64,000 bases of DNA from Aurantiochytrium sp. KH105 (taxonomy: Eukaryota; Sar; Bigyra; Thraustochytrida; Thraustochytriidae): assembly GCA_003116975.1 (NCBI GenBank), contig BGKB01000188.1, positions 1-64,000 of the forward strand, in the 5' to 3' direction. Below are positions 16,171 to 16,911 of this stretch, one piece after another. The first letter of the stretch is position 1. Each line of letters opens with the position of its first letter. The translations under genes were made by a program, and so were the position numbers. The notes below the pieces were generated by a model. It searched no databases. It saw only the letters and a program-made list of their open reading frames with translations, and was not told the origin of the DNA.

Positions 16171-16911
16171 TCAAGCCCATCCACCTGCAAAAGGCATAAT
16201 TTGGCCCGTAATGTAGTCGGCCTTGGATGAAGCTAAAAAGGCGATAAGGTCGGCAGGCTCGTGCGGCTTGGCAAGCCGCCCAAGCGGGATTGGTTTTGTG
16301 ATCTTTGCAAGAATCTCCGGATCGTCTCGGAGCCGTTTGGGAAAGTACGTTTCGCTTTCGACAAAGTTGGGACAAACCGCGTTGACGCAAATATTGTCAG
16401 GACCAACTTCTTTTGCGAGAGTAAGAGCCATGGCGTTGGTGGCGCCGCGGGCAATGGCATACGATGCGTAGTTGGGCAGTCCATGAAAGGGGGTGGCACT
16501 CGTGACGAAGATGATTTTGCCGCGCTTGCGTTCGCGCATGGCGGGGAGCAGCTTGGCGGTGAGTTCAAAGGGAAAGACGGTGAGCGCGTCGAGGGTCTGA
16601 ACAAACTCCTCGCGCGGGATATCGTGGAACTTGCGCCGTACGGCGGGGTACGCGGTGTTGTTCACGAGGATGTCCACGTCGAATTGGACAGCTTCTGCAA
16701 TCTTGCCAACGTCCTGGTGCGAGATGAACTCAAGTCTGTCTTCGCTTACGTCGAGGCCGTCCACAAAGGCGCTGCGCTCGCCCTCGTCGGCGAACCTGGC
16801 ATCCTGGCAGAAGAGCTTGCTCGCCGGCAGGCTCTGCAGCAAGGCGCTCGTGGTAGCCTTGCCAAGAAACTCGGTGGCATGCGTGACGAGTACGCGCGCT
16901 GGCGCCGGCAT
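16171..16911 (-). CDS. Halohydrin dehalogenase-like SDR-fold protein
   Basis: 246 residues from ATG 16911, the usual size of halohydrin dehalogenases. Those enzymes use the short-chain dehydrogenase fold without NAD(P): they turn halohydrins into epoxides and open epoxides with anions such as halide, azide or nitrite. Both diagnostic signatures are exact. The T-x4-F-x-G nucleophile-site motif (T10, F15, G17) replaces the Gly-rich cofactor motif. The triad S-x12-Y-x3-R (S138, Y151, R155) has Arg where dehydrogenases have Lys. The segment IIFVTSATPF and the C-terminal DYITGQ...AGGWA also resemble the bacterial enzymes. A frame extends upstream to 17025, but only through GGCT repeats coding for Gln-Pro-Ala-Ser. 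Enzyme activity is inferred; a non-catalytic or reductase role is not excluded. Confidence 0.82.
   Translation of the reverse strand: MPAPARVLVTHATEFLGKATTSALLQSLPASKLFCQDARFADEGERSAFVDGLDVSEDRLEFISHQDVGKIAEAVQFDVDILVNNTAYPAVRRKFHDIPREEFVQTLDALTVFPFELTAKLLPAMRERKRGKIIFVTSATPFHGLPNYASYAIARGATNAMALTLAKEVGPDNICVNAVCPNFVESETYFPKRLRDDPEILAKITKPIPLGRLAKPHEPADLIAFLASSKADYITGQIMPFAGGWA

Follow-up and report, generated by a model that had tools for sequence, protein, structure and literature searches.

An intact halohydrin dehalogenase-like gene in the nuclear genome of a protist

The gene and its eukaryotic setting

The window, a stretch of 64,000 nucleotides on contig C188 of a 76.0-Mb assembly of 367 contigs, contains an intact gene for a protein that resembles halohydrin dehalogenases (HHDHs). 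The features of the locus are compiled in Table 1. Translation yielded the 246 residues given in the earlier note, followed by a stop codon. The start codon is the ATG within GCCGCCATGCC, and in the window allele the in-frame stretch that extends upstream as far as position 17025 is devoid of an ATG. By eye, neither an N-terminal targeting extension nor a peroxisomal signal at the C-terminus (GGWA) was apparent, which makes a cytosolic location of the predicted protein likely. Tetranucleotide repeats of the CAGC type were found at 4900-5084, 6716-6743 and 16934-16969, far more than expected by chance (19 overlapping matches across the window versus 0.99 expected), and this repeat may perhaps serve as a leader element in this genome.

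Table 1. Coordinates of the gene and of its features in the window
Feature	Positions	Strand	Basis
HHDH-like coding sequence, 246 aa, intact	16171..16911	-	translation, PDB match, alignment, profile
CAGC-type tetranucleotide repeat, presumed 5' leader, directly upstream of the HHDH ATG	16934..16969	-	repeat count
Motif 1, T10-H-A-T-E-F15-L-G17, nucleophile-pocket motif replacing TGxxxGxG	16861..16884	-	translation, published motif, alignment
Motif 2, S138-x12-Y151-x3-R155, catalytic triad with Arg for Lys	16447..16500	-	translation, published motif, alignment
Presumed halide-binding loop P181-N-F-V-E-S-E-T-Y-F-P191	16339..16371	-	aligned with HheC P175-N-Y-L ... F-Y-P188
T86 codon; Asp (HheC D80) in 40/40 A/C-type rows	16654..16656	-	alignment

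The gene is flanked on one side by a Rad10/ERCC1 frame and a UAA-transporter frame, and on the other side by WD40, kinase-PP2C and HECT-ligase frames, so that the eukaryotic neighbourhood described in the earlier note, including ERCC1 and a transporter, is right. A second copy, 98% identical, is present in the same setting on contig C13. Because SDR matches in this genome occur as pairs with nearly equal scores on different contigs, both haplotypes appear to have been assembled, and the HHDH gene occupies one locus per haplotype. The alignment of the gene and its flanks between C188 and C13 comprised 3330 columns with 91.6% identity and 116 gap positions, and both frames are 741 bases long. 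Within the frame, comparison of the two alleles gave 14 synonymous and 4 non-synonymous exchanges (A3P, I133V, P141A and E199K), which corresponds to a pN/pS of 0.09, and the gene is most likely kept by purifying selection. Its GC3 of 0.687 is similar to the values of three neighbours (0.695, 0.687 and 0.654), for which the frame ends used include leader stretches.

Bacterial contamination of the assembly had been named in the earlier note as a possible objection. The nearest relatives that were found are indeed bacterial, but the chance of contamination is next to nil, because a syntenic allele exists on a second contig; in addition, eukaryotic genes lie on both sides within one contig, and the low pN/pS and the GC3 like that of the neighbours point in the same direction. 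It is also quite improbable that a bacterial gene persists here merely as an inactive or moonlighting remnant. The long branch of the protein and its threonine at residue 86 (both described below) would be compatible with a remnant, but the gene is intact in two haplotypes, its pN/pS is low, and the length of the frame is equal in both despite the gap positions in the surrounding alignment.

Elsewhere in the window, a frame of 1162 aa (9104-12592, plus strand) combines prephenate dehydratase, a prephenate-dehydrogenase-like domain and a class I/II aminotransferase, and is apparently a fusion of the Phe/Tyr pathway. A frame of 1252 aa (26142-29900, plus strand) contains cyclic-nucleotide-binding stretches, a protein kinase and a PP2C phosphatase, and an uninterrupted frame of 4835 aa (30297-44804, minus strand) encodes a HECT ubiquitin ligase that also contains three SPRY stretches as well as UBA-like domains. 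The open frames of ERCC1/Rad10 (minus strand) and the UAA transporter (plus strand), together spanning 12808-15642, overlap at their 5' ends (13960-14460); the overlap probably consists of leaders and is not coding.

Motifs, pocket residues and family placement

According to passages of a 2016 review of HHDHs (PMC4989007), two motifs characterize the family, T-X4-F/Y-X-G and S-X12-Y-X3-R. Both are present in the window protein at the residues named in the earlier note (T10, F15, G17 and S138, Y151, R155). The glycine-rich NAD(P) motif is not intact, as THATEFLG is found where SDRs have TGxxxGxG, and the classical SDR signature, TGxxxGxG together with YxxxK, is absent. An alignment of 73 rows was used for comparison, which comprised, besides the window pair, 40 A/C-type, 8 B/D-type and 23 classical SDR rows. 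Of the motif residues, S, Y, R and G were conserved in all 40 A/C-type rows, the first residue of motif 1 was T in 38 and S in 2 of them, and residue 15 was always aromatic (F in 35, W in 3, Y in 2). The position of Arg155 was occupied by Lys in 23 of 23 classical SDR rows. In the loop, Asn182 and an F or Y at residue 190 were present in every one of the 40 A/C-type rows, Y189 in 39 and Pro181 in 32, whereas residue 182 was Gly in 19 of the 23 SDR rows. The window loop has PN in place of PG. For HheC, passages of PMC11976700 describe that the halide is contacted by F12, and that the L178 backbone and the P175 carbonyl are involved in the binding of nucleophile and substrate; the aligned counterparts in the window protein are F15, V184 and P181.

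The motif 1 pattern by itself is weak evidence, because the window protein contains a further, fortuitous match at TSATPFHG, the site at which the pattern match of one relative (L054) is located as well. In four other relatives (L055, L058, L059 and L071) the strict motif 1 was absent by pattern. The co-occurrence of the HHDH residues, judged from the aligned sequences, is not a matter of chance, given their conservation in the 40 A/C-type rows and the Lys in place of Arg155 in all 23 SDR rows. The segment SATPF, which the earlier note had regarded as typical of the family, is indeed present at residues 138-142 of the window allele and in HheC. However, it does not define the family, because the second allele has SATAF and Thr at residue 140 occurs in just 4 of the 40 A/C-type relatives.

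One feature of the A/C-type group is missing from the window protein. Residue 86 is Thr, whereas every one of the 40 A/C-type rows has Asp at the corresponding position (D80 in HheC), an observation of our own and not a published criterion. Of the 8 B/D-type rows, 7 have Leu and 1 has Phe at this position, and 19 of the 23 SDR rows have Ala. Residue 86 follows strand 4 and lies in the loop that adjoins the active site of SDR folds, and therefore the exchange of Asp for Thr may alter the activity or the nucleophile preference. A literature search for the role of Asp80 in HheC returned nothing. The window protein also has inserts at residues 28-29 and 52-55, the exact place of which depends on the alignment.

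The profile search and the phylogeny proposed in the earlier note both supported its assignment to the HHDHs. On a profile of A/C-type HHDHs, which was built without the window pair, the window protein scored 294 bits, compared with 168 bits on an SDR profile and 154 bits on a B/D-type HHDH profile. HheA and HheC, which were included in building the A/C profile, reached 298 and 304 bits, and the best of the 23 SDR rows reached 144.5 bits. Plain pairwise scores separated the groups less well (at least 105.8 bits for A/C types, at most 96.1 bits for classical SDRs, and 97-109 bits for D-type HHDHs). Pfam yielded two generic SDR families only, and all 25 NCBIfam matches listed, out of 200, name SDR families, each below its cut-off. 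Among solved structures, the best match was 6a41 (E 7.8e-48), followed by seven chains named halohydrin dehalogenase. An AlphaFold model based on 9 sequences showed an SDR fold (mean pLDDT 80, pTM 0.82) and was weak at the loops of the active site (pLDDT 61, residues 141-150) and of the halide site (pLDDT 64, residues 181-190). Foldseek with this model again placed 6a41 at rank 1 and halohydrin dehalogenase entries at ranks 2-8, and rank 9 was already an SDR. Among the 50 VIA-align rows listed, the Z scores ranged from 24.7 to 25.8 and HHDHs were interspersed with SDRs; fold scores obtained with a predicted model cannot distinguish the two.

In a tree of the 73 rows, the HHDH rows and the window pair formed a branch of 50 with a support of 100/99. 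Of the 51 alphaproteobacterial matches, this tree drew on the best 30 plus L045, a second copy in genome G002. Nine redundant loci (L001, L037-L044) were omitted, as were eleven SDR loci similar to one another, mostly from SAR324, the viral locus L076, and four rows that were too short (L007, L008, L027 and L086). In a tree of the 50 HHDH rows, for which the program warned of long branches, above all that of L045, the window pair was located on the A/C side of the split between A/C and B/D types (100/99). With 1.04 and 1.29 changes per column, the branch of the window protein is long. The nearest sister of the protein differed between the trees, namely L015 with 91/38 in the 73-row tree and L049/L050 with 83/43 in the 50-row tree. 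AU tests rejected a nesting of the window protein with 21 SDRs (p 0.034) and with three SDRs (p 2.6e-5). A grouping of the SDRs and the window protein versus all HHDHs, which includes a stem position, was not rejected (p 0.43), and neither was a position outside the A/C group (p 0.51). Membership therefore rests on motifs, pocket, profile and tree together, and on this sequence evidence it is well supported that the protein belongs to the HHDH family.

A classical SDR is ruled out by the AU tests of nesting, the motif residues in the alignment and the profile scores. If the protein were an NAD(P)-dependent SDR and its resemblance to HHDHs convergent, this would agree with the SDR names given by Pfam and, below the cut-offs, by NCBIfam, and the AU test permits the stem position; but with the glycine-rich motif absent, Arg in place of Lys, PN in place of PG in the loop, and with the profile scores and the tree, convergence is highly improbable.

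Bacterial relatives and origin of the gene

The closest known structure, 6a41, is a protein of 244 residues entitled 'Dehalogenation enzyme' with 38% identity to the window protein (Foldseek). Together with the nearly identical alphaproteobacterial proteins L073 and L074, it has both motifs and belongs to the A/C-type group, like the window protein, which differs by T86 in place of Asp, by its two inserts and by being encoded by a nuclear eukaryotic gene. L073 and L074 adjoin 6a41 in the 73-row tree (end branches of 0.004-0.013), and thus their alphaproteobacterial family already has a solved structure; a literature search for a paper describing 6a41 found none. HheC (1pwx, 5kwe; about 32% identity, Foldseek) has the motifs, most residues of the halide loop and an identical SATPF segment in common with the window protein, but its C-terminal extension with Trp249, described in section 4 of PMC4989007, is absent from the latter. 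HheA (1zmo, 4z9f) has the motifs, the THA that opens motif 1 and the TYFP after the loop, as in the window protein. A plasmid copy of HheA (L077), 33% identical to the window protein, adjoins a gene annotated as epoxide hydrolase.

A pattern scan of genome contigs revealed eight alphaproteobacterial loci (L009-L016, from Minwuiaceae, Rhodospirillaceae and others) with 46-51% identity, and the other 20 loci had at most 34%. T10, F15, G17, S138, Y151 and R155 are invariant in the eight proteins, and each of them carries Asp at the position of T86 in the window protein. Matches were also counted in groups of genomes, and these counts are lower bounds because the best candidates alone were scored per genome. 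In the Alphaproteobacteria (the class of L015), matches at E<=1e-30 were found in at least 45 of 385 genomes; the best identity was 53% over the full length, and 54% over a part in L054. Matches at this threshold were found in 0 of 369 genomes of the Gammaproteobacteria (the class of L025) and in 0 of 396 genomes of the Actinomycetota (the phylum of L034), and a laxer threshold of E<=1e-26 yielded 5 and 3 genomes, respectively. Of these eight weak matches, four (L081-L084) grouped with HheD2, three (L085, L087 and L088) are classical SDRs, and one (L086) is a broken HHDH-like frame with an internal stop, which was searched with the piece after the stop.

Because the close relatives (46-53% identity) were solely alphaproteobacterial among the genomes sampled, an old transfer of an HHDH gene into the protist lineage, as suggested in the earlier note, is most likely; it fits the long branch, the host-like GC3 and the purifying selection. 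An alphaproteobacterial donor is the likeliest reading, albeit not proven, since the AU tests rejected neither the stem position nor a position outside the A/C group. Plasmid transfer was unsupported, as plasmids gave a single record at E<=1e-25, which is 33% identical. Viral transfer was likewise unsupported, as the one relative on a viral contig is 26% identical and carries the SDR nucleotide motif. Ten neighbouring proteins at three of the eight alphaproteobacterial loci (L009, L010 and L015) were scanned with Pfam, which revealed neither a dehalogenation operon nor a family common to all three; the sole hydrolase was a generic alpha/beta hydrolase at L010.

Proposed function and significance

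Taken together, the gene is probably a functional nuclear HHDH of the A/C type, which the lineage of this protist would have acquired long ago from an alphaproteobacterium. For catalysis, halide specificity, substrate and pathway, as for donor and age, we infer rather than observe, and the mechanism of HheC, as outlined in section 4 of PMC4989007, served as the template for our proposal. By analogy, Ser138 would bind the hydroxyl of the substrate, the proton of which would be taken by Tyr151, activated by Arg155. The substrate oxygen would then displace the vicinal halide, closing the epoxide, and the halide would exit into a pocket lined by T10, F15, G17 and the P181-V184 loop, presumably at the site where SDRs hold the nicotinamide cofactor. 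In the reverse reaction, small anions would open epoxides. The epoxide product could be passed on to epoxide hydrolases of the EHN type encoded in the same genome. Matches to the EHN family, which is also matched by 1 of 14 control genomes, were found at six places on other contigs, apparently three allele pairs, and no epoxide hydrolase was found among the window genes scanned. The role as a dehalogenase or in epoxide conversion is thus suggested by analogy, and the change from Asp to Thr at residue 86 calls for caution.

Alternatively, the protein might be a descendant of HHDHs that has retained the fold and the cofactor-less pocket, and the chemistry of which has changed via Thr86, e.g. to epoxide opening with a non-halide anion. 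Thr86 in place of the Asp of all 40 A/C-type rows, the long branch combined with a low pN/pS between the alleles, and passages of the 2016 review that allow other physiological roles (PMC4989007) would be in accord with this. However, the protein has retained the six residues of the motifs as well as those of the halide loop, and Asp is also absent from all 8 B/D-type rows and thus not needed in the HHDH family at large, so that we regard a changed chemistry as rather unlikely. In a bolder reading, which we regard as less likely than not, the gene might represent a naturalised nuclear HHDH lineage in a labyrinthulomycete-like protist, in which Thr86, found in none of the 40 A/C-type relatives, has retuned the enzyme to a physiological substrate or nucleophile unknown from bacterial HHDHs, in cooperation with unlinked epoxide hydrolases.

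The gene adds a member to an established family, and it does so in a host of an unexpected kind. The first known HHDHs are bacterial, and their natural role is doubtful even in bacteria: according to PMC4989007, just two of the HHDH genes known in 2016 shared an operon with an epoxide hydrolase gene, and other functions were considered not excludable. A search of the open-licence PMC literature for a eukaryotic HHDH, judged by titles and the beginnings of abstracts, found none, and we do not claim that the present gene is the first in a eukaryote. A gene under selection with one locus per haplotype would permit a knock-out test of the role of an HHDH, provided that the host or a related organism is amenable to cultivation and transformation, as thraustochytrids are. 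The window protein is also a natural pocket-loop variant of an enzyme family that is used industrially.

Elsewhere in the genome, stretches resembling the PUFA synthase PfaA were observed on several contigs, the best with 930 bits (E 1.4e-278; family cut-off 1010). Weaker matches of this kind mean little, because 11 of 14 control genomes likewise gave matches below the cut-off. According to the abstract of PMC11951076, synthases of this type produce the PUFAs of thraustochytrids. Taken with the gene content, the PfaA-like stretches suggest that the host is a labyrinthulomycete, probably thraustochytrid-like, which lends indirect support to the marine protist of the earlier note. The PfaA-like matches are distributed over separate contigs, with profile positions 6-1035 on C72 and C155 and positions 1759-2567 on C61 and C290, which reflects either a divided gene or a break of the assembly in the ACP repeats.
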